Positions 6,137 through 28,644 of a stretch of DNA of 29,774 bases are shown in pieces. The first letter of the stretch is position 1; every line of letters starts with the position of its first letter. The DNA is taken from positions 1-29,774 of IMG/VR virus record IMGVR_UViG_3300018405_000050; one strand, 5' to 3'. Under the pieces are notes generated by a model. It searched no databases. It was given only the letters and a program-made list of their open reading frames with translations, and had not been told where the DNA came from. The stretch comes from a virus. Position numbers and translations under genes: made by a program.

Positions 6137-6198
6137 TCTTTCACCCGGCGACCCCATAAGGGGCGTCTTGCAACCCCAAGCCAAAGAGGTAATCCAAC

Positions 6199-6648
6199 AT
6201 GGCTACGATTAACCCGAAGAACGGCGACCTCACGGCTGGCGTCGCCGGTCAGTCTTCCGACATCATCAACGCCAGCCCCGATCCGCTGGTCACTGGCGAC
6301 GCCCCGGCGCTCTACACCGAGCCGCTTCCCGTCGCTGCTGACATGGTGCTCGCGGCTCGCGAAGTCGTCGGCTTCGATGCCAACGACAACATCATCCCGG
6401 CCGTTCTGGACTCCGTCACCCCGGCGAACAGCGTGCAGGCCATCGGCTTCGTGATGTATGCCATCGACACGACCGGCGAAGCCGACGGTGCGGTGGAAGT
6501 CGAAGTCGTTCGCGGCGGCGTCTTCAACCCCGACCTGCTGGTCTGGGAAGATGGCTTCGCCACCGATGCCGACCGGCGTGCTGCTTTCCGTGGGGCTCCG
6601 AGCCCGACGGCGATCATCATCCGCAAACCCACCACCATGACGGTCTGA
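6199..6648 (+). CDS. Head decoration protein (lambda gpD family)
   Basis: Trimeric capsid-stabilising protein that binds the outside of the expanded head. The C-terminal part contains the family's GGVFNPDLLVWEDG stretch. The whole 149 aa protein is beta-rich with little charge, like gpD (110 aa) and its longer relatives. It sits between the protease-scaffold gene and the major capsid gene, exactly as gpD does. AGAGG at 6185-6189 is the ribosome site. A 62-base spacer precedes it, a departure from the tight overlaps seen in the packaging genes; I see no convincing promoter there. Codon use is strongly GC-biased, consistent with high expression. Confidence 0.9.
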   Translation: MATINPKNGDLTAGVAGQSSDIINASPDPLVTGDAPALYTEPLPVAADMVLAAREVVGFDANDNIIPAVLDSVTPANSVQAIGFVMYAIDTTGEADGAVEVEVVRGGVFNPDLLVWEDGFATDADRRAAFRGAPSPTAIIIRKPTTMTV

Positions 6649-6689
6649 TCCAGACCTGAAGCGAGAGACAGAAAGGAAAGAGGACCGAC

Positions 6690-7775
6690 ATGGCACTCGA
6701 CATTTACACTCCGCTTGATCTCTACCGGGTCATGTTCGACCCGCGCCAGACGATCAAGACGAGCCACTGGCTCGACATGTTCTTCCCGAACAGCTTCTAC
6801 TCCACGCAGGAGCAGATCGCGTTCGACAAGATCAGCGCGTCGCGCCCCATCGCGCCGTTCATGCTGCCGAATGAACCCGGCAAGCCGATCTACCGTCGGG
6901 AAGGCGAACGGATCGAGACCTTCAAACCGGCCTACACCAAGCCGAAGGACGCGATCCGTCCGAGCGAGATGCTGGCACTTCAGCCGGGCGAACTGGCCCG
7001 CCGTCAGGCGCTTCAGTCCCCCGCCGCGCGCTACAACGCGGAAGTGATTCGCATCACCAACTACCAGCGCGACGCGATCATGCGCCTCTGGGACTACATG
7101 GCGGCGAAGGTCATCCTCGACGGCCAGATCACCATCACCTACCAAGGCCCCTCCGGCGGCCCCGGTCAGCGCGTGGTGCTGGACTTCGGCCGGGATGCCG
7201 GGCACACCATCATCCTCGGGGCTGGCGCTCGCTGGGGTGAAGCTGGCGTCAACATCTTCAACTCGTGCCAGACCTACATCGACACCGTGGCGAACGCGGA
7301 GTTCGGTGGCTCGGTCACGGACATCATCCTCGGCTCGGCTGCCGCCGTCCCGTTCATGGCGTCCGACGACATCGACAAGAAGATGGACTCGAACTTCACC
7401 AACACGACCGGCGTGGACATCAATCGGGGCCTGATCCGCACCGATCCGATGAACCCGTTCACCATGCTCGGCACGCTCGGCTCGGGCGTCCGCGTCTGGC
7501 GCTACGCCGGGCCGGGGTCGAAGTTCCAGAACAACGACGGCTCCTACACCGACATCATGGACCCGCGCGATGCTCTGTTCATCAGCCCGGCCGTGGACGG
7601 CGTGAAGGCGTTCGGGGCGATCCTCGACAACGCGGCGAACCTCGAAGTCGCGGACATCTTCACGAAGATGTGGGATCAGGAAGACCCGTCGGCTCGCTTC
7701 GTCATGTCGCAGTCGGCTCCGCTCATGATCCCGACCAACCCGAACTGCACCCTGCGCGTTCGCGTGGTCGCCTGA
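6690..7775 (+). CDS. Major capsid protein (lambda gpE family)
   Basis: Main shell protein of the icosahedral head. The 361 aa length compares with 341 for lambda gpE. The N-terminal segment (YTPLDLYRVMF, then DMFFPNSFYS), the internal RPIAPFMLPNEPGKPIYRREG region with a following GELARRQALQS, and the closing MSQSAPLMIPTNPNCTLR segment match the Phage_cap_E layout. The E-type fold is expected to be HK97-like. Two good ribosome sites lie upstream (AAAGGA at 6672 and AAGAGGA at 6678-6684), the strongest initiation region in the window, consistent with the most abundant virion protein. A strong hairpin follows the stop (7796-7817). Confidence 0.95.
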   Translation: MALDIYTPLDLYRVMFDPRQTIKTSHWLDMFFPNSFYSTQEQIAFDKISASRPIAPFMLPNEPGKPIYRREGERIETFKPAYTKPKDAIRPSEMLALQPGELARRQALQSPAARYNAEVIRITNYQRDAIMRLWDYMAAKVILDGQITITYQGPSGGPGQRVVLDFGRDAGHTIILGAGARWGEAGVNIFNSCQTYIDTVANAEFGGSVTDIILGSAAAVPFMASDDIDKKMDSNFTNTTGVDINRGLIRTDPMNPFTMLGTLGSGVRVWRYAGPGSKFQNNDGSYTDIMDPRDALFISPAVDGVKAFGAILDNAANLEVADIFTKMWDQEDPSARFVMSQSAPLMIPTNPNCTLRVRVVA

Positions 7776-11312: not shown

Positions 11313-14300
11313 ATGGCGCGGAAAGATGTTGACCTAGTAATCCGCGCAAAGGATGAAGCTGAGAACGTCGTAAAGAGCATCACCAAGGCGCTCAACGGCT
11401 TCATCGACGCACAGAACGGGCTCCAAGAAAACGCTGAAGGGACCGAGGGCGCGCTGCGTGGCCTCGGTTCCGCAGTGGCCTCTCTCGACAAAGCGATCTC
11501 CGGTCTGGACGTGGGCAACAAGCTCTCGGCCGACATGGACAAGGCGGCCGGTGCGGTCGCCCGGCTCGAAAAGCAGGTCGCCTCGTCGCAGGGTGAGTTC
11601 GCCCAGCTCGAACGCCGGGTGAAGAACGCCGAGACCACGACCGGCCGATACCAGCAGAAGCTCGATGGCGCACGCGCTGCGCAGGAGCGGCAAACTGCTG
11701 CCGTTGCCAAGGCCAAGAAGGAGAGCCGCGATCTGGCGGCCGCCTACGAGCAGTCGGTCGGCGCGGTCGGCAAGCTGACCACCCGGTTCGACCAGCTCCC
11801 GGCGCGGATCATCAAGACGCAGGACGCCTTCGACAAAGCCTCGGCTCGGGTGGCCGATCTCCGTGAGCAGATGGCCGGGACGACCGAGCCCACGAAGACG
11901 CTGGTGGGTCAGCTCGCAGCGGCCGAGCGCAACCTGTCTTCCCAGACCGAGAAGCTGGCGAAGCTCCGGGGCGAATACGCTGCCGTGGAGAGCGAGCTGC
12001 GCGCGGCCGGTTCGGCCGTAACCCTGTTCGCCGGTCAATCGGCCAACGCGGCAGCGGACCTCGCCCGGCAGGAAACGATCCTCGGCAAGATCACCGGCAA
12101 TGTGTCCGATCTGGGCGTCCGCGCCCGCACGGCGGCAGGCGATCAAGGCCGCCTTGAAAGCGCGCTCGACAAGACGAGCAACGCGCTCGCCCGCCAGCAG
12201 GAACAGCTCGGCCGGGCCGAAGGGGCCTATGTCGATCTGGCGGAAGCTGCGGGCCGGTATGACGCCGCGCTCGCCTCGACCGCGAATGTCTCCCGGGGCA
12301 ACCTCGACCAGCAGCTCGTGGATCAGGGGATCGCGGTCAGCAAGGCCCGAGAAGAGCTTCAGCGGCTTCAGCGCGTCTCTGACGGCTACGCGGCCACGAT
12401 GCTGAAGGCCGGGCCGCCCACCCGGGAGGTCTCGCAGCGAATCCAGTTCCTCGGCCAGCGCGCAGACGAGGCGCAGTTCAAGCTCATGGCGCAGGAGGAA
12501 GCCCTTCAGCAGATGGGCCAAGCCTACCGTGACGTGACCTCGGACATGACCTCCGTGACGCAGGGCCAAGCCCGGTTCATCGCCGCGCAGAACCAGCTCG
12601 GCGTCGCGATGCAGTCCGTTGCGAACGACGGCTTCCGCGAGCGGCAGGCGATCCGTGATGTCCACAAGGAGGCGTCCACGGCGGCGGGCTCCGTCACGCG
12701 CCTCGCCAACGCCACGCGCGGTCAGGCCGACGGTGCGGCCCGTGGGGCCACGGAGACGGGCCGTCTGGCGCAAGCCTACCGGCAGCTCTACGGCGACACC
12801 CGGAAGTCCCTGTCCTACACGCAGCGCCTCCGGGGCGAAGTCCTCTCGCTGATCGCGGCCTACGGTGGCTTCTACGGCGTGGTGCAGCTCCTTGGCGCGG
12901 TCGTTGACGCCTATCAGGTGCTCGAAGCGGCGCAGTCTCGCCTCGGCGTGGCGCTTGGCGGCGATGTCGAACAGACTGCGCAGGAGATGGACTTCCTGCG
13001 GCGCACGGCCAACCGGCTCGGCGTGGACCTCGGGACTCTGGCGACCGAGTATTCCAAGTTTGCCATCGCCACGCAGGGGACGGCGCTGGCCGGGGAGAAC
13101 ACCCGGAAAATCTTCATCGCCGTGGCGGAAGCCGCTCGGGTGAACCGCTCGACCACGGCCGAGATGCAGGGCGTGTTCACGGCCCTGACCCAGATCGTGT
13201 CGAAGGGCGCGGTCCAGATGGAAGAGCTGAGGCAGCAGCTCGGGGATCGCTTGCCCGGGGCTCTGCAAATCATGGCTGACGGCCTCGGCGTGACCACCGC
13301 CGAGCTTATCAAGATGATGGAAGCCGGGGAGGTCACGGCCGAGGCGCTGGTGCCCTTCTCCGAGGAACTGTCCCGTCGGTTCGGCCCGGGTCTCGGTGAG
13401 GCGCTGGCCTCCACGTCGGTTGCGCTCGGCCGCCTGAAGAACGCGGCCTTCCAAGCCCTCGTCCAGTTCGGGGAAGGCGGGTTCATCCAAGCCTTCACCA
13501 AGCTCGCGAACGATCTGACCGATCTTCTGAAGAGCGCCGACTTCGGGGCCTTCCTCGGGCGGGCGTCCGCCGCCTTCGCGGTGCTGATCGACACGCTCGG
13601 CGTGCTGGTGGACAACTTCGATCTGGTGGTCGCTGCTGGTGCCGCGTTCCTCGGGCTGAAGCTGACCCCGTTCATCGTGGTCCTCGCTGCCGAGATCGGG
13701 AAGCTGCCGGGCCTGCTGGCTGCCGGGGCTGGGGCCTTGCGCGGCTTCGCTGCTGGCTCCACCGCTGCCGCTGCCGGGGCGACCACGGCTGCTGCCGGGC
13801 TGGGCCGTCTGACCATCGCTATTCGCGCGCTCATGTCCTCCACGGGCATCGGCCTGCTGGTCACGGCGGTATCCGTCGGGATCGGGCTCTGGGCGACCAA
13901 GGCCGATGAGGCCAGCGAAGCTCTCAACGAGCACAAGAAGATGGTTGATAAGGTCCGGGACGCCTACGACGCCGTGGGCGGTTCGGTCGAAGAGTGGCGC
14001 AACACGCTCAACGATCTGACGGCCACCGAGGCGCAGGCGAACCTCAACCGGATCAAGTCGGCCGTGAAGTCGCTCGAAGATACCCTCGACGCCACGGCGA
14101 GCGGCACCGAGGACTTCTGGACCAACTTCTTCGGCTACAACCTGCGCGCCTCGGTTCGCAAGGTTCCGGGTGAGCTGCGCGACGAGATCGAGCGCCTGTC
14201 CACCGCCTTCTCGAACGGCGACATGACGGCCGAAGAGTTCTACGACTCGGTGGACAGCGCCGTGTCCAGCTTGGGCGACGGCAAGGAGGAATCCACCGAG

Positions 14301-16376
14301 TTCGCGGAGCGGGTCATCCAAGCGGCTCGTGCCCTCGAAGACGCCCGGGACTCGGCCGACGACGCCCGCAACATCGTCCGCGCGCTTGGCGACGACATGG
14401 ACGACGCGCAAGACGCCTTCGACGATCTGGGCAACTCGGCCGCCGACGCAGGCCGGAGCCTCGAAGACATCGCGGAAGAGAAGGCCGACAAGTTCAAGGC
14501 GGCGATGGACACGATGGCCGAGGGCGTCGCCTCGGTGAACCGCGAGCTGGAATACATCGCGGCCTCGGAAGCCCTCAACAAGCTCGGCCGGGAAGCCATC
14601 GAGAACGCCTCGAACCTCGACGAGCTGGCGGCCGCGCTGGCGCGGATCAAGGAGGCGCAGGACGCCCTCGACCAAGAGTATGTCTCGGACGCTCTCTCCG
14701 GCTCGCTGGTGGACCGGATCATCGGCGTGGAGAGCGGGGGCGATCCGGGGGCGCGCAACCCCAACTCGACGGCCACCGGCCTCGGGCAGTTCATCGAGTC
14801 CACGTGGCTCCGCATGTTCAAGCAGTATTTCCCGGATCGCGCGGCCAGCATGTCCGACGCGGCGATCTTGGCGCTGCGCGAGCAAGCGGACATCTCGCGG
14901 CAGATGGTTGAGCTGTATCTGCGGGAGAACGCGGAGCACCTGCGCCGGGCCGGGCAGGCCGTCACCGACGCCAACCTCTACCTCTCGCACTTCCTCGGGC
15001 CGGGCGGCGCGGCCGCGCTTCTGGGGTCCGCCCCCGGCACGCTCGCGAACGACGTGCTCTCGGCCGGGCAGATCAACGCCAACGCCTCGATCCTCGACGG
15101 GAAGACCCGGGAGGAAGTGATCGCGTGGGCGCAGCGCAAGGTCGGCATCTCCGAGCAAGAGCTGGCCGTGGCCGAGCAGCTTCAGGACTCCGAGCGCGAC
15201 CGCGCCGAGGAAGCCCGCAAAGAGGCCGAGCGCCGGGCTGAAGAGGCCGCCAAGCAGCGCGAGGAAACCGCACAGCGGATCGACGACAACGACTTCGAGA
15301 TCGAGCAGCAGCGGCTTCGCAATGCCGAACAGGAGAAGGAAGCCGCGATCCGGGCCGCGATCCGCGACGCGCGAGCTGACGACCCGAACATCACCGAGGA
15401 AGAGATCGCCCGCATCCGCGAGCAGGTCGGGGCGCTCTACGACCTCGAACACGCACAGGAGCGGGCGAACGCGGCCAAGGAGCGGGCGAAGGAAGCCGAA
15501 GAGCAGGTGAACCTCCTGCTGGCGGAACGGAACGCGCTCAACGACCAGTTCGAGATCGCGAAGCAGACGGGTGACACGGAGCTTCAGGAAGAGCTTCGCC
15601 AGAAGATGACCGAGATCAACGCAGAGCTGATCGCGGCAATCGAGCACGCCCGGGAACTCTGGGGCGTCGTGGGCGGTCCCGAGGCGGACACGGCCATCGC
15701 GAAGCTGGATGCGGCCAAGGCGTCGGCCGAGCAGTTCGGGAACGCGGCCGTCAAGAACTACCTCGACTGGACTCGGGTGAAAGACCTGCTGGTCAACGGC
15801 CTGACCAACGCCTTCGACAAGTTCGCGCAGGCGGTTGCGAACGGCGAGGACGCGGGCAAGGCAGCGCGCGACGCCTTCCTTCAGTTCGCCTCGGACTTCC
15901 TGCTTCAGATCGCCAAGATGATCGTGCAGCAGGCGATCTTCAACGCGCTTCAGGCGGCCTTCGGCGGGACGCCCTTCGGGGCCTTGATCGGCTTCGGCGC
16001 GGGGCACACTGGCGGCACGGTCGGCAGCTCTCGCGTGGGCTCGGGGAACCAGACGCGGCAGGTAAACCCGGCAGTCTTTGCGGGGGCCATGCGCTACCAC
16101 GTCGGCGGCCTGATCGGCCTGCGGCCGGGGGAGGTTCCGATCATCGCGAAGCAAGGCGAAGAGATGCTGACCCGGGACGACCCGCGCCACGTCCTCAACG
16201 GCGGTCTGGCAGGCGGCCAAGCGGCCCCGGCCAAGGCGGGCAACACGCGCGTCGTGAACGCCTTCGACGGCACGTCCTTCCTCGAAGAAGCCCTGAAGAC
16301 TCGGGCGGGCGAGGAAGTCATTCTCAACTACGTGTCGGCAAACCGCTCGGCCGTGCGCTCGGCTCTGGGGGTCTGA
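11313..16376 (+). CDS. Tape measure protein with an embedded lytic-transglycosylase-like domain
   Basis: Sets tail length and is ejected with DNA into the cell envelope. Order along 1687 aa: coiled-coil N-terminus (1-420); tape-measure core at about 535-720, with the pattern FLRRTANRLGVD, GQ-free LATEYSKFAIATQGT, then QMEELRQQLGDRLPGALQ; hydrophobic, alanine/glycine-rich segments likely to enter membrane (770-860); an SLT/lysozyme-like domain at about 1130-1240 with likely catalytic Glu1140 in GVESGGDPGARN and TATGLGQFIESTW; charged coiled coil (1260-1450); and a C-terminus with GGLIGLRPGEVPIIAKQGE, common in lambda-type tape measures. The ribosome site AAGGAG (11301-11306) overlaps the chaperone stop. 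Lambda gpH is 853 aa; at about 0.15 nm per residue this protein implies a tail near 250 nm. The muramidase-type domain probably helps cross peptidoglycan. Confidence 0.93.
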   Translation: MARKDVDLVIRAKDEAENVVKSITKALNGFIDAQNGLQENAEGTEGALRGLGSAVASLDKAISGLDVGNKLSADMDKAAGAVARLEKQVASSQGEFAQLERRVKNAETTTGRYQQKLDGARAAQERQTAAVAKAKKESRDLAAAYEQSVGAVGKLTTRFDQLPARIIKTQDAFDKASARVADLREQMAGTTEPTKTLVGQLAAAERNLSSQTEKLAKLRGEYAAVESELRAAGSAVTLFAGQSANAAADLARQETILGKITGNVSDLGVRARTAAGDQGRLESALDKTSNALARQQEQLGRAEGAYVDLAEAAGRYDAALASTANVSRGNLDQQLVDQGIAVSKAREELQRLQRVSDGYAATMLKAGPPTREVSQRIQFLGQRADEAQFKLMAQEEALQQMGQAYRDVTSDMTSVTQGQARFIAAQNQLGVAMQSVANDGFRERQAIRDVHKEASTAAGSVTRLANATRGQADGAARGATETGRLAQAYRQLYGDTRKSLSYTQRLRGEVLSLIAAYGGFYGVVQLLGAVVDAYQVLEAAQSRLGVALGGDVEQTAQEMDFLRRTANRLGVDLGTLATEYSKFAIATQGTALAGENTRKIFIAVAEAARVNRSTTAEMQGVFTALTQIVSKGAVQMEELRQQLGDRLPGALQIMADGLGVTTAELIKMMEAGEVTAEALVPFSEELSRRFGPGLGEALASTSVALGRLKNAAFQALVQFGEGGFIQAFTKLANDLTDLLKSADFGAFLGRASAAFAVLIDTLGVLVDNFDLVVAAGAAFLGLKLTPFIVVLAAEIGKLPGLLAAGAGALRGFAAGSTAAAAGATTAAAGLGRLTIAIRALMSSTGIGLLVTAVSVGIGLWATKADEASEALNEHKKMVDKVRDAYDAVGGSVEEWRNTLNDLTATEAQANLNRIKSAVKSLEDTLDATASGTEDFWTNFFGYNLRASVRKVPGELRDEIERLSTAFSNGDMTAEEFYDSVDSAVSSLGDGKEESTEFAERVIQAARALEDARDSADDARNIVRALGDDMDDAQDAFDDLGNSAADAGRSLEDIAEEKADKFKAAMDTMAEGVASVNRELEYIAASEALNKLGREAIENASNLDELAAALARIKEAQDALDQEYVSDALSGSLVDRIIGVESGGDPGARNPNSTATGLGQFIESTWLRMFKQYFPDRAASMSDAAILALREQADISRQMVELYLRENAEHLRRAGQAVTDANLYLSHFLGPGGAAALLGSAPGTLANDVLSAGQINANASILDGKTREEVIAWAQRKVGISEQELAVAEQLQDSERDRAEEARKEAERRAEEAAKQREETAQRIDDNDFEIEQQRLRNAEQEKEAAIRAAIRDARADDPNITEEEIARIREQVGALYDLEHAQERANAAKERAKEAEEQVNLLLAERNALNDQFEIAKQTGDTELQEELRQKMTEINAELIAAIEHARELWGVVGGPEADTAIAKLDAAKASAEQFGNAAVKNYLDWTRVKDLLVNGLTNAFDKFAQAVANGEDAGKAARDAFLQFASDFLLQIAKMIVQQAIFNALQAAFGGTPFGALIGFGAGHTGGTVGSSRVGSGNQTRQVNPAVFAGAMRYHVGGLIGLRPGEVPIIAKQGEEMLTRDDPRHVLNGGLAGGQAAPAKAGNTRVVNAFDGTSFLEEALKTRAGEEVILNYVSANRSAVRSALGV

Positions 16377-16377
16377 C

Positions 16378-18168
16378 ATGGCAAAGAAGGCCATCTTCAT
16401 CGCACTGGACAACTCCGGCTCGATGGCGGGGGAAAAGGCGGCCAACCTCCGCATGGCGATGATCCGGCTCGTCGAGAGTTTTTCGGACTTCATCGACACG
16501 CCCGGGAACTCGCTCGACCTCGGCATCTGCATCTGGGGCGACACGGCGGACACGCAGGTCTGGCGCGGCGTGTCCCGGGCGGGGGTCAGCGGGGCCATCG
16601 CGTCGCTCGACCGGCTCAACGGGCAGGGCGGCGGGACGAACTTCGCGGCTTTCGCTCCGTCGGCCTTGACCTTCTTCCAAGAGACGATTGGCGAGACCTA
16701 CGCCGACCGGACCATGATCTTCCTGACGGATGGAGACCCCACCCCTCCGTCCACGGCGGACACGGCGGCCGCGACGCTGGCGGACGTGCTGGACCAGTCC
16801 ACCGCGCCCTTCACCACGCTCAACGGCACGGAGGTCAACTGCTACGCCGCGAACATCGACTCGGGCACGACCATCCACACGGCGAAGCTCGATAACACGG
16901 GCGCGGACGGGGTGCCGGTCGTGGCCGGGAACGCCCGCGCGCTGACGGCCTACCTGAAGGCTGTGACCCTGCCCGTGCAGGAGCACCGGCTTTGGGGGTG
17001 GCCGATCCAGTGGGCGCAGGGCTACGACGAAGAGATCGCCTTTCGCACCGAGATCATCGTCAGCCGGGACGGCACGGAGCAGCGGATCGGCCAGCGGATC
17101 AACCCCCGGGTCAACTACGACTTCGAGTCCGTGCTGCGCGGGCGCAACCTTCGGACGGCGCTGGCCCGGGTCGTGGACAAGCAGGGCGGCCAGTTCTATG
17201 TGCCGCACCCGCGCGAGCCCGCAGTTCTGGCGGCCGACATGCCCAGCGTCGCACTGTCCGCGCAGATCGCCGGGGCGGCCCCGAGCTGGCTGGTTCCCGG
17301 CGTCTACGCGATCTTCGAGAGCCCGACCGGCGATGCCTCGCTGGGCGTGGTAATCAGCGTCTCGGGAAGCACCGTGAATTTGGCGGCTCCTATGGGCCGC
17401 GCGTTCCCGGCCGGGTCCAAGTTCCGCCTCGGCGTCGAAGGCCGGTTCGACGGTGCGACGCAGTTCAACCTCCTGACGAGCGACAAGGCGCGCGTGCAGA
17501 CGCAGTTCACCGGAGACCCGGTGGACACCCCGCACCCGACTTTCGGCGCGGCCCCCGTGACGCTGGAAGGCACGGAGCTGTTCGACATGCGACCGAACTG
17601 GCGGCAGGCCGGGGAGATCAGCGTGGAGCAGGCCGTGGACATTCTGGACCTCGAACGCGGGGCCATCGACGCGATCTTCCCCATCACGTTCTCGCCGCGC
17701 ACCCAGAAGCACACCTTCACAGCCCGGTCGGTGGCAGAGCTTGACCGCATCCTCGGGCTGTTCTACCGCGCCTCGGGCCGCCGCAAACGGTTCTTCATGC
17801 CGCTCTGGGCCGACGAGATCAGGCCGCTCGGTGTGACCTACTCGGGGCAGACCGGCATCACCATTCTCGGGTCTGATTTTGCCGAGACCTACGGGGGCCT
17901 GAGCACCTACCGGCGCGTCATCATCCGCCGCCGGGCACCGCTTGCCGACCTCATTCTCGCCGTGGATTCCGTGACGCTGGACTCCTCGAACAACTCGGTC
18001 ATCAACTTGACCGATCCCGCACCTGACGACATCATCGAGCAAGAGATCACGAGCATGAACTGGATCATGCCTGTCCGGTTCGCGAGCGATAGGCTGACGG
18101 TGAGCTGGCTCACTGACGCGGTTGCCGAGATCACCCTGACCGTCACGACCTTGGAGGGCGAAGCATGA
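16378..18168 (+). CDS. Distal-tail-like protein with N-terminal von Willebrand A domain
   Basis: Residues 1-200 form a vWA domain with a complete metal-ion-dependent adhesion site: D11-x-S13-x-S15 in LDNSGSM, Thr87 in GGGTNF and Asp118 in FLTDGDPT. After it, from about 205, comes a tail-tip segment: LWGWPIQWAQGYDEEIAFRT, RDGTEQRIGQRINPRV, and a second similar element (VAELDRILGLFYRASGRRKR, FFMPLW). This paired pattern occurs in phage distal-tail or DUF2460-like minor tail proteins that form the ring joining tube to tip. Its place directly after the tape measure, one base after its stop (TGACATG), supports that role. The vWA domain is paralogous to the one in the tip protein at 19464-22493. 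The tail location is well supported by synteny; what the vWA domain binds is unknown. Confidence 0.82.
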   Translation: MAKKAIFIALDNSGSMAGEKAANLRMAMIRLVESFSDFIDTPGNSLDLGICIWGDTADTQVWRGVSRAGVSGAIASLDRLNGQGGGTNFAAFAPSALTFFQETIGETYADRTMIFLTDGDPTPPSTADTAAATLADVLDQSTAPFTTLNGTEVNCYAANIDSGTTIHTAKLDNTGADGVPVVAGNARALTAYLKAVTLPVQEHRLWGWPIQWAQGYDEEIAFRTEIIVSRDGTEQRIGQRINPRVNYDFESVLRGRNLRTALARVVDKQGGQFYVPHPREPAVLAADMPSVALSAQIAGAAPSWLVPGVYAIFESPTGDASLGVVISVSGSTVNLAAPMGRAFPAGSKFRLGVEGRFDGATQFNLLTSDKARVQTQFTGDPVDTPHPTFGAAPVTLEGTELFDMRPNWRQAGEISVEQAVDILDLERGAIDAIFPITFSPRTQKHTFTARSVAELDRILGLFYRASGRRKRFFMPLWADEIRPLGVTYSGQTGITILGSDFAETYGGLSTYRRVIIRRRAPLADLILAVDSVTLDSSNNSVINLTDPAPDDIIEQEITSMNWIMPVRFASDRLTVSWLTDAVAEITLTVTTLEGEA

Positions 18169-19010
18169 CCTATGACGCCATTGAACGAAGCCAGCAGGAC
18201 GGGATCGCCGCATCCCTCTTCCTGATCGAGTATGGGGACACCGACGACTCCTACTTCGCCTACACGGACGCCGATCAGCCGATCACGCACGACGGCAAGA
18301 CCTACCTGCCCACCACCATCGGCCGGGACAAGATCGAGAGCGCGGGCAACAGCCTCGACAACACGACGCTGAAGATCGACATCACGCCGAACGCCTCCAT
18401 CGTGACCCTCTTTCGGGGCCGCCTGCCGTCGCACCAGATCAGGATGACGATCTATCAGGGGCACCCGGAAGACCCGGACGCGGACTACAAGGTCGTCTGG
18501 ACGGGCCGGATCATCTCGGTCGCCCGGAAGACTCGCTTTGCGCAGATCGCGGCCGAGCCGGTCAGCACGTCGATGAAGAGGACCGGGCTGCGCCGCCACT
18601 ACCAGTATGGGTGCCCGTGGGCGCTCTACGGCGCGGAGTGCAAGGCCAACAAGGCGGCAGCGCGGGTGAACCCGCTGGCGGCAGCTCTCGGAAAGAACTA
18701 CATCGACTTCGAGCCGGGCTGGTTCAATGACCTCCCCGTCGAGAAGTTCATCGGTGGCTACGTGCAGTGGACGGACAACGAGACGGGCATCTTGCAAACC
18801 CGGACGATCCTGACCATGAACGGCAGCCAGCGGGTCATCCTCAACGGCGACGTGTTCGGACTGGACGTGGGGGAGCAGGTCAACGCATACCTCGGCTGCA
18901 ATCACCAGCTTTCCGATTGTGAGTTTCTGCACCACAATGTAGTAAACTTTGGAGGGCAGCCGTGGATTCCGAAGGACAACCCCACGAAGCTGACCAACCA
19001 GTTCTATTGA
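18165..19010 (+). CDS. Tail hub protein, BR0599/DUF2163-type (gpL-like, probable [4Fe-4S])
   Basis: Probable tail-tip hub protein linking the distal ring to the tip. The N-terminal half (VWTGRIISVARK, then AAEPVSTSMKRTGLRRHYQ) matches DUF2163 tail proteins. The C-terminal part has the BR0599-type ending DCEFLHHNVVNFGGQPWIP. Four cysteines, Cys150, Cys159, Cys245 and Cys252, form C-x8-C and C-x6-C pairs. As I recall, lambda gpL binds a [4Fe-4S] cluster through cysteines 173, 182, 205 and 212, the same pair spacings; gene transfer agent hubs are reported to do the same. Here the inter-pair stretch is far longer (85 residues against 22), consistent with an inserted beta domain. GGAGGG at 18153-18158 and an ATGA overlap set the start. 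Confidence 0.86.
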   Translation: MTYDAIERSQQDGIAASLFLIEYGDTDDSYFAYTDADQPITHDGKTYLPTTIGRDKIESAGNSLDNTTLKIDITPNASIVTLFRGRLPSHQIRMTIYQGHPEDPDADYKVVWTGRIISVARKTRFAQIAAEPVSTSMKRTGLRRHYQYGCPWALYGAECKANKAAARVNPLAAALGKNYIDFEPGWFNDLPVEKFIGGYVQWTDNETGILQTRTILTMNGSQRVILNGDVFGLDVGEQVNAYLGCNHQLSDCEFLHHNVVNFGGQPWIPKDNPTKLTNQFY

Positions 19011-19022
19011 GGGGGTGCGCCC

Positions 19023-19256
19023 ATGCCTTTTTGGTTCCTGATCCAGCTCGCCATCGGCGTCGCCCTCATGGTGGTGGCCTACGCCCTCGCGCCCAAGCCC
19101 AAGGAGCAGAAGCCCGCAGCTTCCTCCGACCTTGAAGCCCCCACGGCCGAGGCGGGCCGCCCGATCCCCGTGGTCTTCGGATCGCTGGAAATCAAGGGCG
19201 GGAACGTCATCGGCTATTGGGACAAGCAGAAGCACGACTTCAAGGTGAAAGCATGA
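19023..19256 (+). CDS. Small membrane-anchored-looking tail tip protein
   Basis: A 77 aa protein with one hydrophobic helix at residues 3-25 (FWFLIQLAIGVALMVVAYALA), a short proline/lysine linker, and the motif GRPIPVVFGSLEIKGGNVIGYWD. That motif recurs at the start of tail tip proteins of many lambda-like phages, often as VVFGTvxIxxPNVxWYGD. Its location between the gpL-like hub and the gpJ-like tip suggests a tip-assembly role, perhaps split from or complementary to the tip protein's N-terminus. GAGGGGG (19009-19015) precedes the ATG. The 3' end overlaps the next gene as ATGA. The biochemical role is unknown. Confidence 0.75.
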   Translation: MPFWFLIQLAIGVALMVVAYALAPKPKEQKPAASSDLEAPTAEAGRPIPVVFGSLEIKGGNVIGYWDKQKHDFKVKA

Positions 19257-19471
19257 CGACGGCGCAGGACACCGGGGACTTCATCGTCACCATTGCGGAC
19301 GTTCGCAAGAGCGGACACTGCGCCTCCGGGGCGCGCGAGTTTTTTGAGAGCAACGACCTCGACTTCCGGGACTTCCTGAAGAACGGGGTGAAGGCGAGCG
19401 TCCTGCTGGCGACCGGCGATGCCCGGGCCGTGCAGGTCGTGAACCGCACGAGGGAGCGCCGTTATGGGTAA
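19253..19471 (+). CDS. Small conserved tail-tip-locus protein, unknown function
   Basis: A 72 aa protein without predicted membrane segment or signal. The order of motifs (IVTIADVRKSGHCASGAREFF, then NDLDFRDFLKNGVKASVLLATGDA) resembles short proteins seen next to tip genes in many phages, with a pattern of LCxxGxRxWFxxxxLDWxxFlxxGi. It may be a chaperone or structural tip component; no function is known to me. ATG 19253 forms an ATGA overlap with the preceding gene, so an upstream in-frame start at 19217 is unlikely. The 3' end overlaps the tip protein gene by eight bases. Confidence 0.75.
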   Translation: MTTAQDTGDFIVTIADVRKSGHCASGAREFFESNDLDFRDFLKNGVKASVLLATGDARAVQVVNRTRERRYG

Positions 19472-22400
19472 GGGTGGCAGCAAGCCTAAGATGCGAGTGA
19501 CGGAGTATTTCTGCTCCGTCCAATATGGCCTCTGCCAAGGCCCGGTCGATTCGCTCAACCGCATCCGCATCAACGAGAAGATCGCGTGGGAGGGCCGGGT
19601 CGGCTCGGAGTCGATCTTCGAGATCAACAAGCAGAAGCTCTACGGCGGCATCAAGAAAGAGGGCGGCGTGCAGGGCTACGTCGTCTGGCAGCCGGGCAGC
19701 TTCACGCAATTCTGCTCGGAGACCGTCGCGGCCAAGCTGGGGCGCACCCCGGCAAACGCCCCCGCGTATCGCGGGCTGGCGAACGTCATGATGACCGGGA
19801 AGCCCAGCCTGAAGGGGGAGGATGCCCCGATTGAAGAGGCCAACGACGGCGGCATCCAAGACAGCCCCATCAGCAACTTCTTCCAGCTCTTGATCGGCAG
19901 CCTGTTCGCAGGCGTCGGCAAGGAGAACGGCAAGGACTCGGCCGTGGGGAACCGGAACGGGTTCTATTGGGGTGCGAACCAGCCCTACATCTGGCCGTGC
20001 GCCTTCCACCTGACGCGCATCCCGCGTGGCTGGTATCCCGAGAAGGCGGCCATCGTCTCCGGCACGACCACGCCGCGCTCGGTCCACTTCGCCATCGACA
20101 ACTCCGGCTCCATGACGGCCGTGCGACGGAACACGGTCAAGGCCGCCTTCGCGACGCTCTTCTCGCAGCTCCGGCAGCAGATCGACGAGTTCGGCTTGCA
20201 GATCAACCTCGGGATCAACCTCTGGGGCGGGACGACCAACGAGCGCATCTGGAACAACGCCACGAGCGCGAACATCGACGCGGCCGAGACCTTCATCCAG
20301 AACGGCCTCAACGCAGGCGCAGGCGGCACGGACTTCACGCAGGCGGCGAACGGCGCGGTGGGGTTCTTCGATCAGTCGCTCGCGCAGACCCTCGACCGCC
20401 GCATCATGTTCCTCATCACCGACGGGGAGCCCACCGACGGCTACCCCGTGTCGGCCGCGCAGTCGATCATGTCGGACCTGTTGGATCGGGGGTCGGGCAG
20501 CTACTCCACGGCCGCCGGGACAGCGGTGGACTGCTACGCCGTGAACATCGAGCTTGAAGATACGCAGTATTCCAGCGCCCTCGACAACACGACCGGCACG
20601 GACAAGAGCCTGACGACCGGCGGCGCGGTCCCGGTTATCGGGGAGGGGGACTCCACGGTTCTCGCGGACCTCATCATGGACGCCCTTGGTAACGGGAACC
20701 CGCCCTCGGCCAACCCGGCCCACATGATCTACGAGGCCCTGACGGATCGCTCGTGGGGCATGGGTGCGAACTCGGCCGCGCTGGACGACACCAGCTTCCG
20801 CGCCTCGGCCGACATCTTTTTCAACGAGAGCTTCGGCCTCTCGATGATCTGGACGCAGCAACAGACCATCCAGTCCTTCGTGCAGGAAATCCTCGACCAC
20901 GTGGAAGCCAACCTCTACGTGGACCCGAGCACCGGGAAGTTCGTGCTGAAGCCGATCCGGGACGACTATGACCCGGAAACATTGGAGGTCTTCGACGAGT
21001 CGAGCTGCACCATCCGGGACTTCCAGCGCCGCGCGCCCACGGAGATCGTCAACGAGATCAACCTGACGTGGACCAACCCGGACACCGAGGAAGAAGAGGT
21101 CATCACGCAGCAGGACATCGGTGGCATCGTCGTGAACAACGGTGAGATCATCTCCGACAACCGGAACTACTACGGCATCCGGGACCGCAGGCTTGCGGCC
21201 ACCGTTCTTGCGCGCGATCTGGCGGCCGTGACGGCCCCTCTCGCAACGGCAGAGATCGAGATCGACCGCTCGGCTTGGTCCTACGCCCCGGGCTCCGTGC
21301 TGAAGCTCTCTTCGGAAGAGCACGACGCGGAAGAGCTGGTCATGCGGGTAGCCAAGATCAACTACGGCAAGCCGGGGGACTCCAAGATCGTCGCCTCGCT
21401 GACGCAGGACATCTTCAGCTTCGCGCGGCCGCAGGTGGTCTTGCCCCCCTCGACCGAGCTAGACAGCGGCGGCAAGGAGCCCACCCTGATCGAATACGTC
21501 GAGTTCATGACCTTCAACTACTTCTTCACGGTCAATCTCGTGCCGCCGGAGACCACGGCGAACGTGGACTACCCGGACGTGTTCGTCGGCATCCTCGCGT
21601 CGTCCCTCAACACCGATGTCGCGTCCATCGACGTGCTCGGGGAGGTTCTGGACGCGGCGGGCAACACCTATACCGAGCCGACCGGGACCATCATGCCTGT
21701 CTCTCGCGGCCAGCTCGCAGTGGCTTTCGAGCAAGAAGCCGAGACCCTGACGCCGGGTTTCAGCTCGCTCACGGTAGGCTCCGGGCCGACCCCCGGTGGC
21801 TTCGCCCTGATCGGGCTGGAAGACGGGACCGAGCAGGGCCGAGAGCTGGTCATGTTCGTGGAGAACGACGGGTCGAACTGGACCATCAAGCGGGGCATCC
21901 TCGACACGGTTCCGCGCGAGTGGCCCATCGGCACGCCGATCCGCTTCTTCGGCCCGGGGGACTTCATCACCGACGCCGAGCTGGAAACGGCCTTCGCGGA
22001 GCGGGACTACAAGCTCGCCATGCAGACGACCCTCGGCGCGTTCCCGGAGAGCTTGGCCCAGACGGAGAGCTACACCCCGAGCGAGCGCCCCTACCTCCCG
22101 GCTCGCCCGGCGAACGTCAAGGTCGCAGGGGTCGGCTTCGGGGACGTGGACGCCAGCGACCTCCCGGACGTTCCTGTGACGTGGGCAAACCGAAACCGCC
22201 TCACGGAAGATTCGCAGGTTCTCGCTTGGGATGACCCGGGAGTGACCCCGGAGCCCGGCCAGCTCACCAAGATCACCATCCTCGACGCGGACACGCGCGA
22301 GATCGTCAACGAGATCGCGGACCTGCCCGACGAAAGCTATACGCTACCCAAGGCTTCCTTTGGGACCGCAACCCGGGCTATTGTCCGGGTGACATCGACC

Positions 22401-22493
22401 CGGGGCGGCTATGAATCGCTTCAGGGCCACGAAATCGGAATCACCATCGCTTCTGGCTACGGCTTCGGCTACGGCCTGTCCTACGGAGAATAA
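19464..22493 (+). CDS. Tail tip (gpJ-like) protein with an inserted von Willebrand A domain
   Basis: Central tail tip protein likely to contact the host receptor. Residues 1-200 and 415-720 match tip proteins of lambda-type siphophages: VTEYFCSVQYGLCQGPVDSLNRI near the N-terminus; NPAHMIYEALTDRSWGMG at 417; and APTEIVNEINLTWTNPDTEE. A vWA domain is inserted between them at about 207-410, with intact MIDAS residues D212-x-S214-x-S216 (IDNSGSM), Thr289 (GGTDF) and Asp320 (ITDGEPT). The C-terminal region (about 720-1009) is beta-rich and ends in aromatic/glycine repeats (YGFGYGLSYGE). The length, 1009 aa, is near lambda gpJ (1132). AGGGAG at 19451-19456 is the ribosome site. Its vWA is clearly paralogous to that in the distal-tail-like gene (both keep an LGI-x-x-WG and a CYA-x-NI segment). 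Confidence 0.88.
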   Translation: MGKGGSKPKMRVTEYFCSVQYGLCQGPVDSLNRIRINEKIAWEGRVGSESIFEINKQKLYGGIKKEGGVQGYVVWQPGSFTQFCSETVAAKLGRTPANAPAYRGLANVMMTGKPSLKGEDAPIEEANDGGIQDSPISNFFQLLIGSLFAGVGKENGKDSAVGNRNGFYWGANQPYIWPCAFHLTRIPRGWYPEKAAIVSGTTTPRSVHFAIDNSGSMTAVRRNTVKAAFATLFSQLRQQIDEFGLQINLGINLWGGTTNERIWNNATSANIDAAETFIQNGLNAGAGGTDFTQAANGAVGFFDQSLAQTLDRRIMFLITDGEPTDGYPVSAAQSIMSDLLDRGSGSYSTAAGTAVDCYAVNIELEDTQYSSALDNTTGTDKSLTTGGAVPVIGEGDSTVLADLIMDALGNGNPPSANPAHMIYEALTDRSWGMGANSAALDDTSFRASADIFFNESFGLSMIWTQQQTIQSFVQEILDHVEANLYVDPSTGKFVLKPIRDDYDPETLEVFDESSCTIRDFQRRAPTEIVNEINLTWTNPDTEEEEVITQQDIGGIVVNNGEIISDNRNYYGIRDRRLAATVLARDLAAVTAPLATAEIEIDRSAWSYAPGSVLKLSSEEHDAEELVMRVAKINYGKPGDSKIVASLTQDIFSFARPQVVLPPSTELDSGGKEPTLIEYVEFMTFNYFFTVNLVPPETTANVDYPDVFVGILASSLNTDVASIDVLGEVLDAAGNTYTEPTGTIMPVSRGQLAVAFEQEAETLTPGFSSLTVGSGPTPGGFALIGLEDGTEQGRELVMFVENDGSNWTIKRGILDTVPREWPIGTPIRFFGPGDFITDAELETAFAERDYKLAMQTTLGAFPESLAQTESYTPSERPYLPARPANVKVAGVGFGDVDASDLPDVPVTWANRNRLTEDSQVLAWDDPGVTPEPGQLTKITILDADTREIVNEIADLPDESYTLPKASFGTATRAIVRVTSTRGGYESLQGHEIGITIASGYGFGYGLSYGE

Positions 22494-22495
22494 TC

Positions 22496-25156
22496 ATGGT
22501 CATGCGACAAACCCCCGGCCTCGGCCTCAACGCTTTCTGGGACTTGGGGGCGGATGGCTGGAACACCGGCATGGACACGAACCTGCGGCTGCTCTCGGCG
22601 GTCGTGGGTGCCCGGGTGCAGTCCCGGGTAACGGCCCTCCCGGCGTCCCCGGCAGTCGGCTCCATCTACATCGTGCCTGCATCGGACGCGACGAACGGGA
22701 ACAAGCTGGCGGTCTGGGACGGCCCGGACGGTGCGCGGCAGTGGGTCTACCTGACCCCGCAGGTCGGGTGGCACTTCTTCGTCGTGGACGAGGGCGTGAA
22801 CGTCCAGTGGACCGGCGCGTCGTGGGTTGAGTTCGCTGGCGGCGGCGGTGGTGGGGGCGCCTCGATCTACGGGTCGCAAATCCTGATCCAGCTCGCCCAG
22901 AGCGCCGGGCAGACCATTGACTCGACGACCGCGACTCTGGCCTTCGGGGACGTGATCTCCGACGATAACGAGTATTTCAACGCGGCCGACAACACGATCC
23001 GCATCCCGGCGGCGCAGGAGGGCCGCACGGCCATCTTCGTCGCCAACACGCGGCACACGACTGACGGCACGGGCGCGGTGGACACCACGCTCGAACGCTC
23101 CATCGACGGGGGCTCTACGTGGGAGCCCATCGCCAGCTCTTCGGACGACGAGGACTACTTCGGCATCACGACCATGACCGCGCTCGTCACCTTCCTCGGC
23201 GGGGACTGGTATCGGCTGCGCCACACGACCAGCAGCTCGAAGACGACGAGTGGCGACCAGCAGACCTCGCTTGCGGTAACGACCGTCGGCGCGGGGCAGA
23301 TCGGCCGGATCGTCCGCACGACCTCCAACCGGGTCGTGACCAACAGCCGCTTCGAGTCTGGCGACTTCACCGACTGGACCACCAACACGGCATCCGGGAC
23401 GCTGAAGGTCTACACGCCGCCGGATCGGGAGGCGGACCACGTGCTCCACCCGGACGGCTACGCCTACATGGGCCTGTCGGGGGATTCCGGCGGCCCTTGG
23501 TGGATTGAGCATGTCGTCGATCTCCCGAACGACCCCAGCAGCATCACGGTCTATTGGGACCAGCACACGCGCTTTGTCGAAGACATGATCCGGCTGGAAG
23601 TCTTCTACCTCGACGCCAGCGATACGGTGATCGGCACCTATGTCGGGGGCAACCGTCTCAACTCGGCCATCCAACTCTGGGAGACCTTCGCGGACACGGC
23701 GGCCAACGTGCCGAACGGAACGACCAAGGCCCGGATTCGCCTGAATACGGTCGTGACCGGCGGCTCCCAGCAGATCAACCTCACGAATATGCGGGTCGTC
23801 ACCACGACCCTCGGCGTGTCCGGGATGCTGCCGGGCTCGGTCTACGCCTACCTCCCCGACCTCGCGGGCAACGCGAACAAGGTGCTCCGCGTGACGGAGA
23901 CCGGGGACGACGTGGAGTGGGGCGGCAGCCCGATCCGGTTCCGTGCCGGGTCGCTCGACGAGCCGGAGGTCATGGACCTTCAGTTCCTCGGCACGGCCTT
24001 CAACGCGGTCAAGACCGGCGACACGATCCAGCTCTCGTTCACGGGCGGCCTCGCGCTGCACGGGGCGGCCGGAGAGGTCAGCGGCGGCGTGACCAAGCTC
24101 ACGATCACCGGGGACGGTGCGTCGATCACGTCTCCCGTTCCGGGGGAGATCGAGATCGCCATCCCGGGCGGCGGCGCAGCGACTCCGGCGGCCACGGCAA
24201 TCGAAGAGATCGACGGCATCGACGCGGTTCGCTCCGGCATGTCGATGGACCAGAACGGGCAGCCGCTCGTCTGGGACCACGCCGCGAACGCCTTTGTCCC
24301 GCTCCCGGCAGGCTTCAGCCCGATTGCCTATGGCGGCGGCGCGGACCTTCTCTGGTCGGGCGATCTCGCCGGGGTGCGCAACGTGATCCTGACCGACGAG
24401 GACCACGGGCTCTACCAGTATGACGAGCTGCACTTCGTCCTGCGCAACGCCAACGACCACGCCGATGTCGCGATCTCTACGGACGGCGGCAGCACGTGGT
24501 CCACGGTCTTCTATGCGTGGGCTGGCGTGGGTGGCACGGGCGAAGGGACGGCCAGCTCCGATGCTTTCCGGCTTGGCGGCTACAACTCGGACGTGGACCT
24601 TCAGATCGCCGTCGGCGTCTTGCGGTTCATGAGCGAGGCCGGGATGCCGACCACGTGGGACATGTTCGGGTCGGTCCCTTCGGCCAGCGGGGATATTCAC
24701 TATCGGGGCTTCTCGGCTGCGGCAGCGGCCCACAACACGGTCATCTTCCAGCGGGACAGCGCAGGCAACTTCACGGGCGGCCAGCTCTTCATCATGGGCG
24801 TCAAGAAGACCCGGCAGCCGGTGGACATCTCGGGCCGTGTGGAGAACGGCGGCGTGCTGGCGGCGGATCAGGAAGTCCTCTTCCACGAGACGCTGGGGCT
24901 GAAGTTCGATCAGGGCTCCCCGGTCGGCCGCATCCGCGTCAACCCGGCCACGGCCGCACCCACGACCTTCGCGTTCCGGTCCTTCGACGGGACGGAGCTG
25001 TTCACCGCCACCATCGCAGCCGGGGAGACCTCCGTGGAGATCAGCCTGCCGTCGCCCGTGGTCGTGACCGACGCGCTCCGGGTCGTGGCTCCGTCGAGCC
25101 CTGACGCCAACGTGACGGACGTTTACGTGGCCCTGCGCGGGGAGGCCGCCCGATGA
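22496..25156 (+). CDS. Tail fibre with DUF2793-like N-terminal domain
   Basis: Large probable receptor-binding fibre (886 aa). Residues 1-115 follow the DUF2793 layout: LGLNAFWDLGADGWN, the LPASPAVGSIYIVPA turn, and GWHFFVVDEGVNVQWTGASW. A run of glycines (near residue 120) links it to a repeat-rich beta stretch. Residues of about 280-430 look like a jelly-roll sugar-binding module: VTNSRFESGDFTDWTTN with later GYAYMGLSGDSGGPWW, an arrangement typical of CBM4/9-like domains. The rest is beta-rich with several S/T/G-rich blocks. The ATG follows GGAGA (22485-22489) by six bases. It directly follows the tip protein and shares the ATGA junction with the subtilase gene. Fibre function is inferred; the specific sugar is unknown. 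Confidence 0.8.
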   Translation: MVMRQTPGLGLNAFWDLGADGWNTGMDTNLRLLSAVVGARVQSRVTALPASPAVGSIYIVPASDATNGNKLAVWDGPDGARQWVYLTPQVGWHFFVVDEGVNVQWTGASWVEFAGGGGGGGASIYGSQILIQLAQSAGQTIDSTTATLAFGDVISDDNEYFNAADNTIRIPAAQEGRTAIFVANTRHTTDGTGAVDTTLERSIDGGSTWEPIASSSDDEDYFGITTMTALVTFLGGDWYRLRHTTSSSKTTSGDQQTSLAVTTVGAGQIGRIVRTTSNRVVTNSRFESGDFTDWTTNTASGTLKVYTPPDREADHVLHPDGYAYMGLSGDSGGPWWIEHVVDLPNDPSSITVYWDQHTRFVEDMIRLEVFYLDASDTVIGTYVGGNRLNSAIQLWETFADTAANVPNGTTKARIRLNTVVTGGSQQINLTNMRVVTTTLGVSGMLPGSVYAYLPDLAGNANKVLRVTETGDDVEWGGSPIRFRAGSLDEPEVMDLQFLGTAFNAVKTGDTIQLSFTGGLALHGAAGEVSGGVTKLTITGDGASITSPVPGEIEIAIPGGGAATPAATAIEEIDGIDAVRSGMSMDQNGQPLVWDHAANAFVPLPAGFSPIAYGGGADLLWSGDLAGVRNVILTDEDHGLYQYDELHFVLRNANDHADVAISTDGGSTWSTVFYAWAGVGGTGEGTASSDAFRLGGYNSDVDLQIAVGVLRFMSEAGMPTTWDMFGSVPSASGDIHYRGFSAAAAAHNTVIFQRDSAGNFTGGQLFIMGVKKTRQPVDISGRVENGGVLAADQEVLFHETLGLKFDQGSPVGRIRVNPATAAPTTFAFRSFDGTELFTATIAAGETSVEISLPSPVVVTDALRVVAPSSPDANVTDVYVALRGEAAR

Positions 25157-27669
25157 CCAGCCAGATCATTGTCACCGTCATCGACCCGAAGTTCCGAGGC
25201 CCTGTCATGGAAGCCTTGGAGCCCTTCGGGGACATGGTGCCCTCGGAGAGCCTGCCGCGCGTCTTTACGGCCCATGTGGCGGAAGAGGTCGAGGCCGACT
25301 TCATGCTCTCCGTGGCGAACGACCACCGCATCTCTGGCGCGGCGGATGGCGCAGGCGTCGTGGCCCCTATGGGCTACGGCGAGTCCTTCATCTACGAGCC
25401 GCGCATGTGGAACGAGAAGCACGGCGCGCTGCGGCTGAAGGCGACGCAAGACCCGAAGAGCGGGAACTTCAATCCGTGGTGGCTTCAGCCCGACTTCTTC
25501 AAGTGGCGGTTTGACAGCGACCGGCTTGGCGACGGCGTGATTATTGCCATCGTGGACGGCGGGATTCGCTGGGGGCACCCGGAGTTCCGCAAGAACCCCG
25601 GCCGGGTCACGCGCATCCACAACTTCTCGTCCATTGACTTCGGGGCGTCCAACCACGGCACGACCTGCGCGGCTCTGGCGGCGGGTGATAACCTCGGGAT
25701 CGCACCGGAGGCCGAGCTTTGGGACGTGAAGGTTTTTAGCTCTGCCGGAGGCTCCACCACCAACGAGGCGATCACGGCCGGTCTGGAAACGCTCGCGGCT
25801 CGGGCGGTCGATCCGGCCTACAACCCGGACGGCAAGTTCGTCGTCGCTAACCTCTCCTTCGGCTCGACGGGCACGAACTACGCCAACCCCTACGGCTCGA
25901 TCATCCAAGACCTCATGGACATCGGCGTGCTGGTGTTCATTGCGGCCGGGAACGATAGCCAGAACCTCGACACGACGTTCGACGCTTGGCCCGCTGAAGC
26001 CTCGGACTATGCGGTCGGCGCGATCCACTACGACGGCCGCCGTGCCGCGTTCTCGAACTACGGCAGCCGGGTCCGATTCTACGGATTCGGCCACCGCGTC
26101 GTGACCGTCACCGACGGGGCGAAGTATGGGGAGGGCTCCGGCACGAGCTATGCCACACCCTACCTTTGCGGCTGCCTCGCCACGTGGCTCCCCGGGCGGT
26201 GGGTGCCGCAGGACTTCGAGCAGGTCCGCACGCTCCTGTCCGACTACATGGCCTTCTGCTCCGAGGGCATCTACGGCGAGTCCGTCCGGTCGGTTTTCGG
26301 GGACGACAAGATCGAGGGGGTCGTGATCGCGCGGGCCTCCTATTTCCCCATCGTCCCGGGTGACGTTATCGTGCCGCAGCTCAACGCCGTCGCACGCTTC
26401 GGCACGGCCGAGTATGGCGTCCTCGGGTGGAAGAGCCGGGCGACCCCGATCATCGGCGGGTCGAGCCACGGCGTCACGGGGCAGAGCGCCAAAGGGGCCG
26501 TGTTCTTCCGTGAGCCCTTCGGCTTCCCGAACGGCGGGCCGTGGATGGACCCCGCTTATATCCCGACCGGGTGGGGGATCGACAATGACCAGATCAAGAA
26601 TCGCTCCGGCGCTGCGGGGACCGGCATGTTCGCCGTGAGCAGCCAGAACCTCGCGCTCGGGGAGTATTGGGAGATCGAGCCCCGGGGTGCGGTGGCGGGC
26701 ATGTCCGTGGGCATCACGAAGGTCTCGAACCTCGGCAACTACAACGAGGCCACGACCGGAATGGGCGCGGCTGGCGTCGAGTGGTTCTCTGACGGCTCGC
26801 TCACGGCCGACGGCGTGGCCCAGACGGCCACGATCAGCTATGTCGAGGGCGACCGCCTCATGCTGGCCTATGACAACGCGACCGGCGAGTTCTGGTGCGG
26901 CAAGAACGGCGTCTGGGCCGCAGAGCCGGGCGTAGACGCGGCCCTCGCAACGACGGCAACCGGAGCGTCCCGGGCGGCCGTGAGCGTCCCTGACGGGTCG
27001 CAGGCGCAGCTCTACGGAGAAAGCACGCACGTCCTCTATACGGTCGCGGGGTTCACCCCGTTCGATCTCGGCGCGGAGATCGAGTGGAAGATCGACCCGG
27101 CGCTCATCTCGACGGGCCACACCCTTTCGGAAAACGACACGCGGCTCACCAACACCAGCGGCGGCTCGGACTACCGGCCCGTGGCCCCCTCGGATCGAGT
27201 CATCTCGGCAGCGCAGGCAGGCATGGTCTATTGGGAGATGGCGCTTCTCGCAGGCCCCAGCTCTTACACGGGCTACCTCGGGATTGTCGGCACGGCCTTC
27301 CTCGCGGCTAACCCGCCGCCCAACAACGTGACCAACCCGGTCTACGCGGGAATGTATAACTGGCGCGGCAACGGGACGATCTGGGGGCCGACCGGGAGCC
27401 AAGCGATCTCTGGCGTCCCGACCTACGGTATCGGGGACCGCCTCATGTTCTGCTACGAGCCGACGACCGGGAAGTTCTGGTTCGGCAAGAACGGGACGTG
27501 GGACCGCAACCCGGAGACGGAAGCCCCTCGGGTGACGCAGCCTATCGAGGACATGCGGCCCTTTATCCAGACGCGCGACACGGGCGTTTCCGCGAAGCTC
27601 ATTTCCCTGTCCTCGGACTTCCTCTATTCTATCCCCAGCGGGGCCGTCGCGCTCGGCACTCTCGCCTGA
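25153..27669 (+). CDS. Subtilisin-like serine protease (S8) with C-terminal SPRY-like repeats
   Basis: A complete subtilase in the tail fibre block. Catalytic triad: Asp135 in IVDGGI, His168 in NHGTTCAALAAG and Ser332 in GTSYATP, with oxyanion Asn267 in FIAAGND. Residues 1-68 (IIVTVIDPKFRGPVMEALEP, then RVFTAHVAEEVEADFM) have the beta-alpha-beta pattern of an I9-type propeptide, suggesting autoproteolytic maturation. Two repeats follow at about 474-630 and 643-838, each with the SPRY/ConA-like signature: GDRLMLAYDNATGEFWCGKNG at 566-586 and GDRLMFCYEPTTGKFWFGKNG at 761-781. SPRY domains are protein-binding modules. There is no signal peptide, so virion assembly rather than secretion is expected. 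GGAGG at 25141-25145 and an ATGA overlap support the start. Virion incorporation and substrate are inference. Confidence 0.9.
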   Translation: MTSQIIVTVIDPKFRGPVMEALEPFGDMVPSESLPRVFTAHVAEEVEADFMLSVANDHRISGAADGAGVVAPMGYGESFIYEPRMWNEKHGALRLKATQDPKSGNFNPWWLQPDFFKWRFDSDRLGDGVIIAIVDGGIRWGHPEFRKNPGRVTRIHNFSSIDFGASNHGTTCAALAAGDNLGIAPEAELWDVKVFSSAGGSTTNEAITAGLETLAARAVDPAYNPDGKFVVANLSFGSTGTNYANPYGSIIQDLMDIGVLVFIAAGNDSQNLDTTFDAWPAEASDYAVGAIHYDGRRAAFSNYGSRVRFYGFGHRVVTVTDGAKYGEGSGTSYATPYLCGCLATWLPGRWVPQDFEQVRTLLSDYMAFCSEGIYGESVRSVFGDDKIEGVVIARASYFPIVPGDVIVPQLNAVARFGTAEYGVLGWKSRATPIIGGSSHGVTGQSAKGAVFFREPFGFPNGGPWMDPAYIPTGWGIDNDQIKNRSGAAGTGMFAVSSQNLALGEYWEIEPRGAVAGMSVGITKVSNLGNYNEATTGMGAAGVEWFSDGSLTADGVAQTATISYVEGDRLMLAYDNATGEFWCGKNGVWAAEPGVDAALATTATGASRAAVSVPDGSQAQLYGESTHVLYTVAGFTPFDLGAEIEWKIDPALISTGHTLSENDTRLTNTSGGSDYRPVAPSDRVISAAQAGMVYWEMALLAGPSSYTGYLGIVGTAFLAANPPPNNVTNPVYAGMYNWRGNGTIWGPTGSQAISGVPTYGIGDRLMFCYEPTTGKFWFGKNGTWDRNPETEAPRVTQPIEDMRPFIQTRDTGVSAKLISLSSDFLYSIPSGAVALGTLA

Positions 27670-28633: not shown

Positions 28634-28644
28634 CGGAGAAGACC

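Follow-up and report, generated by a model that had tools for sequence, protein, structure and literature searches.

What does a von Willebrand A (vWA) domain with an intact metal-binding site (MIDAS) do at the tip of a phage tail, and how did it come to lie there? These questions are raised by a 29,774 nt stretch of viral DNA, hereafter the window. This 29.8-kb virus record carries genes for terminase, S49 protease, capsid, tail and muramidase, and its tail-tip genes are ordered as tape measure, a 596 aa open reading frame (ORF), hub, two small ORFs and a 1009 aa J-like protein (Table 1). The 596 aa ORF (16378-18168) begins with ATG 2 bases past the tape measure stop codon, directly after that gene as the sequence-only reading had it, and is considered real because full-length 596 aa homologues at 74% identity are encoded on other contigs. 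A 1761 aa minus-strand ORF (11334-16619), antisense to the tape measure gene, is most likely an effect of the high GC content (65.5%) and not a gene.

Table 1. Tail-tip features of the window.
Feature	Position	Strand	Basis
Tape measure protein, 1687 aa	11313..16376	+	ORF; directly upstream of Dit
vWA domain 1, Dit N-terminus, residues 1-201	16378..16980	+	PF00092/PF13519/phrog_15205; fold match Z 12.9, low pLDDT
MIDAS DxSxS, D11/S13/S15	16408..16422	+	invariant in every copy spanning the motif
MIDAS T87	16636..16638	+	kept in 53/54 copies
MIDAS D118	16729..16731	+	kept in 54/54 copies
Dit core, residues 206-596, JBD30 gp49/Chi type, DUF2460	16993..18168	+	profiles, fold
Hub/upper baseplate protein	18165..19010	+	Gp84_N + BR0599, conserved cysteines
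Small tail protein, conserved in module	19023..19256	+	phrog_1180
J-like tail tip protein, 1009 aa, JBD30 gp53/Chi J type	19464..22493	+	profile, structure matches
vWA domain 2, inserted in J, residues ~203-413	20070..20702	+	PF00092 36.9 bits; pLDDT mostly 85-95

vWA domains in the distal tail and J-like proteins

The 596 aa protein is an intact-MIDAS vWA domain fused to a distal tail protein (Dit) of the JBD30/Chi/GTA type. Its N-terminal part matched PF00092 (24.0 bits, cut-off 23.8) and PF13519 (E 2e-5), and phrog_15205 matched residues 4-207 (E 6.5e-24). The remainder matched DUF2460 (E 4e-7) and phrog_1082 (E 8e-70), and the profile of the Dit family matched JBD30 gp49 (E 1e-87); both the core fold and the position after the tape measure gene are those of a Dit. 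The fusion itself had been recognized correctly, with D11, S13, S15, T87 and D118 as its MIDAS, but it had been compared with the lambda-type distal tail protein, and the core is not of the lambda M kind. The bare spacing pattern of the MIDAS is weak evidence, as it was matched by chance in 215 of 2000 shuffled sequences (10.8%); what places vWA 1 beyond chance is its profile scores, together with the conservation seen among 54 copies of the domain.

The structure prediction suggested for the fusion was obtained with AlphaFold2 and was informative mainly for the core, which was modelled at pLDDT ~90; residues 197-596 aligned to JBD30 gp49 with Z 33.7 over 392 residues, and the core matched the Chi distal tail protein with Z 31.7. 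The vWA 1 part was modelled at low confidence (pLDDT 35-68) because the domain is present in only 5 of the 42 aligned Dit proteins, yet its best match was still a vWA domain, that of an Aeromonas adhesin (Z 12.9). By homology, the 596 aa protein would form a ring on the virion where the tail tube ends, and each vWA would be present in three copies per tail, since the Dit core shares the tandem architecture of the trimeric JBD30 gp49.

The single vWA domain reported earlier is real, but a second one with a full MIDAS (D212, S214, S216, T289, D320) had been missed in the J-like protein. The two domains share 33% identity across 172 residues, and profiles, models and conservation assign the vWA fold and the complete MIDAS residue set to both. 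The J-vWA was modelled confidently, with Z 17-20 to vWA/I domains including those of pilus-tip Mfa5, SpaC, integrin alpha I and the anthrax toxin receptor, and the solved proteins nearest in sequence to the phage vWA include an RTX-adhesin vWA. RTX adhesins and integrins have vWA/I domains (9das, 9no5, integrin alpha I) with the fold and the MIDAS of the phage domains, but these belong to cell-surface proteins, whereas the phage vWA sits on tail-tip proteins and its ligand is putative.

The architecture around these domains is familiar. The JBD30 baseplate (PDB 8rk3, PMC11445458) has the gene order and the Dit, hub and J folds of the window, and the J-like protein matched JBD30 gp53 by profile with E 6e-136. 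The J and Dit of phage Chi (8vjh) are likewise homologous to those of the window, whose J insertion point maps between Chi residues 146 and 155. No vWA insert is present in the solved J homologues (JBD30 gp53 and Chi), and the Dit proteins of both phages also lack the domain. RcGTA (PMC7296036) resembles the window in its DUF2460-type Dit, cysteine-cluster hub and megatron-like J; its Dit differs in that it is shorter, assembles as a hexamer, contains an OB insertion and has no described vWA.

Occurrence and movement of the domain

A set of 255 loci was drawn from IMG/VR, GTDB genomes and phages on the basis of tail-protein similarity, with J alignments serving for the scans. All 129 vWA-bearing ORFs were orthologues of Dit, hub or J, and the family is thus confined to tail-tip proteins in the examined loci. 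As these loci were picked by similarity to tail proteins, relatives outside tip proteins are possible; eight complete or nearly complete vWA phage genomes searched as a whole had no copy outside them. With these numbers, and with two copies in the window, the domain is not the isolated rarity at the tip that it had been taken for.

By tblastn, the domain was found in 18-25 phage records, from phages of Bordetella, Xanthomonas, Stenotrophomonas, Pseudomonas, Erythrobacter, Rhodobacter and Variovorax. It lies in J in phages Elanor, ZS04, R6L and Bhz59, in both hub and J in MW2, CN2, Mallos, PaMx28, QH3 and V45iii, and in Dit alone in RcSpartan. The phrog_15205 proteins of Bordetella MW2/CN2, PaMx28 and Mallos belong to the same vWA family and the same tip module and are accompanied by a J copy, but carry the domain on the hub N-terminus, whereas the window carries it on Dit and has a vWA-free hub. 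The Titanvirus RcSpartan Dit (gp22) retains the MIDAS as in the window; its vWA is located between the two Dit core domains and not N-terminally, and its J has no copy. RcTitan likewise bears one vWA, in Dit, and both phages have R. capsulatus YW1 as their laboratory host. Among the named prophage hosts, Rhodobacteraceae predominate; the remainder include Halomonas, Pseudomonas, Gilliamella and Acinetobacter. One J protein of a known phage is already annotated as 'von Willebrand factor type A', but we found no paper in the open-access literature on vWA domains in siphophage tips or on this family, and the papers on the related phages Lydia and R6L do not mention vWA.

The MIDAS is almost perfectly conserved among the 54 distinct copies: D11, S13 and S15 are invariant in all 53 copies that span them, 53 of the 54 copies keep T87, and all keep D118. 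A family signature, DNTxxDGVPV, is found at positions 172-181. Outside the MIDAS, the copies diverge to ~25-35% identity.

Comparison of the copies indicates that the domain has been transferred repeatedly among tip genes. In the maximum-likelihood tree, the hub copies formed one clade (support 96/95), while the Dit copies required at least four changes, with Dit groups nested with J copies; RcSpartan is a long branch of unsure placement. In J, the insertion always falls at one site, which separates the N-terminal domain from the MNPAHIIREC segment. In Dit, three sites are used, namely the N-terminus (the window clade), the inside of the first OB domain (loci L024/L025) and the junction between the core domains (L082 and RcSpartan); on JBD30 numbering the insertion points are 174, 257/271 and 350-353. 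Because the J site is constant while Dit gained the domain several times at three sites and the hub once, J was probably the original home of the vWA in these phages, from which a mobile cassette would have been copied into the other two genes.

Locus L082 provides a clean pair of filled and empty sites and illustrates how a domain can be duplicated within a phage genome in nature. Its Dit (3342-5012) contains a ~183 aa insert that is absent from six relatives (L257-L262) with 80-90% identity, and over 552 nt the insert DNA matches the vWA in the J gene of L082 itself at 77% identity. The relatives with the empty Dit site retain the J copy. The insert is best read as copied from J to Dit within one phage lineage.

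Lateral fibres and vWA domains

The window differs from JBD30 most clearly at the Dit N-terminus. In JBD30, the N-terminal domain I of the Dit trimer wraps the lateral fibres gp47/gp48, which bear pilus interaction surfaces (PMC11445458), and the genes of these fibres sit between tape measure and Dit. The tail-tip gene order of the window is that of JBD30 from gp46 minus gp47/gp48: no gp47/gp48 homologue and no fibre gene lies between its tape measure and Dit genes, and it therefore lacks lateral fibres of the JBD30 type as defined by that position. vWA 1 occupies the place of the fibre-holding Dit arm.

We then compared the occurrence of the two features in 95 non-redundant loci. The vWA was found at none of the 30 loci with gp47/gp48 but at 32 of the 65 others (Fisher 2.4e-7, a value that ignores relatedness), and it was also absent from a further 76 fibre loci (0/76). 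When independent evolution was simulated on the J tree under a symmetric trait-rate model, the asymmetric one having run to the boundary, the probability of zero co-occurrence was about 0.001 (0.001-0.012 by conditioning). The independent-pairs test alone was not significant (0 pairs the same way, median p 0.5); the pairs were few and all in one direction. Within this sample, vWA and lateral fibres are mutually exclusive. The vWA is not the sole alternative to the fibres, since 33 of the 95 loci bear neither.

Dit N-terminal extensions of ~150 aa without upstream gp47/gp48 occur at L011 and L019 (both 5784-7373) and at L071 (3893-5467), and those of L011 and L071 have no Pfam match. These extensions are perhaps another adsorption module in the slot of the vWA or the arm.

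Candidate roles of the tip vWA domains

The vWA seems to be an alternative to lateral fibres, which favours a role in adsorption. Our main reading, to which we give a probability of roughly 0.6, is that the window encodes a JBD30/Chi/GTA-kind tip with two MIDAS vWA domains, that these derive from a mobile cassette, and that they may mediate host adsorption as a substitute for lateral fibres. vWA 1 would be displayed at the Dit N-terminus and vWA 2 in a loop of J, and each vWA would coordinate a divalent cation at its MIDAS and engage an acidic group on a host-surface ligand, the domains thereby doing the job of JBD30 gp47/gp48. Surface exposure, ligand binding and adsorption are predicted properties here, and metal dependence is suggested by the invariant MIDAS residues only. 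The broader proposal that MIDAS vWA cassettes on Dit, hub and J constitute an undescribed class of adsorption device, with metal-dependent ligand binding in place of lateral fibres, is more tentative, falling somewhat short of even odds. If it is true, phages use the metal-gated adhesion fold of integrins and bacterial adhesins in a form movable among tip proteins, proteobacterial phages have a new kind of receptor-binding module with a recognizable annotation signature, and binding by some siphophages without lateral fibres is explained.

The earlier reading had left assembly and adhesion side by side. Adhesion is now the better supported, and a required part in assembly is disfavoured by close relatives whose Dit or J lacks the domain, which on these comparisons is dispensable for both proteins. 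A metal-dependent assembly or trigger clamp is unlikely but deserves more weight than the remaining alternatives: the MIDAS might bind an acidic residue of another tip protein and so hold or sense the closed tip. vWA domains are common in the assembly of intracellular complexes, and where the ring (Dit or hub) carries a copy, J almost always carries one too. Nevertheless, J carries the only vWA at 21 of the 32 vWA loci and Dit does so in RcSpartan, so that a vWA-vWA pair is not required, and vWA-free Dit and J orthologues exist, including the Dit proteins 80-90% identical to that of L082. Obligate pairing of the Dit and J domains was ruled out, as most loci are single-copy.

Rates of change bear on both adsorption and the internal clamp. 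Between the window and its closest relative, L004, vWA 1 is 80% identical and the Dit core 72%; such a slow domain is unusual for one that faces a receptor, which counts against adsorption and in favour of the clamp. The same pair shows the reverse in J, where vWA 2 is 57% identical and the remainder 72-87%. The J copy is also fast in L024/L025 (59% versus about 80%) and likewise in L071/L079, but fast evolution of the vWA was rejected as a general receptor signature because it is absent in most pairs besides these three. It is suggestive only that the J-vWA appears freer to change and the Dit-vWA more constrained, so that the two copies may differ in role.

Tail proteins frequently exchange decoration domains, and the vWA could accordingly be a compact spacer, binding without metal or inert. 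We regard this as quite improbable, since virtually every one of the 54 copies retains the MIDAS, in three proteins and across large divergence, and dN/dS is about 0.2-0.45. Jumbo-phage MoxR-vWA pairs have been proposed as assembly cochaperones (PMC7824862), which sets a precedent for vWA in virion assembly, but a cochaperone of a MoxR-type AAA ATPase is hardly credible for a domain fused to virion structural proteins. A MoxR AAA_3 gene was found in none of nine records, comprising the eight complete or nearly complete vWA phages and the window, itself a fragment.

Downstream of J, the window encodes a putative tail fibre of 886 aa (22496-25156) with an N-terminal DUF2793 and a weak BNR/Asp-box repeat. 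It is followed at 25153-27669, in tail-fibre position, by a subtilisin-like protease (Peptidase_S8, E 1.5e-22) whose C-terminus is weakly SPRY-like; an S8 protease gene is similarly placed in Xanthomonas phage Mallos, another vWA phage. An N-acetylmuramidase with a peptidoglycan-binding domain is encoded at 27958-29772 by a gene that continues past the window end.
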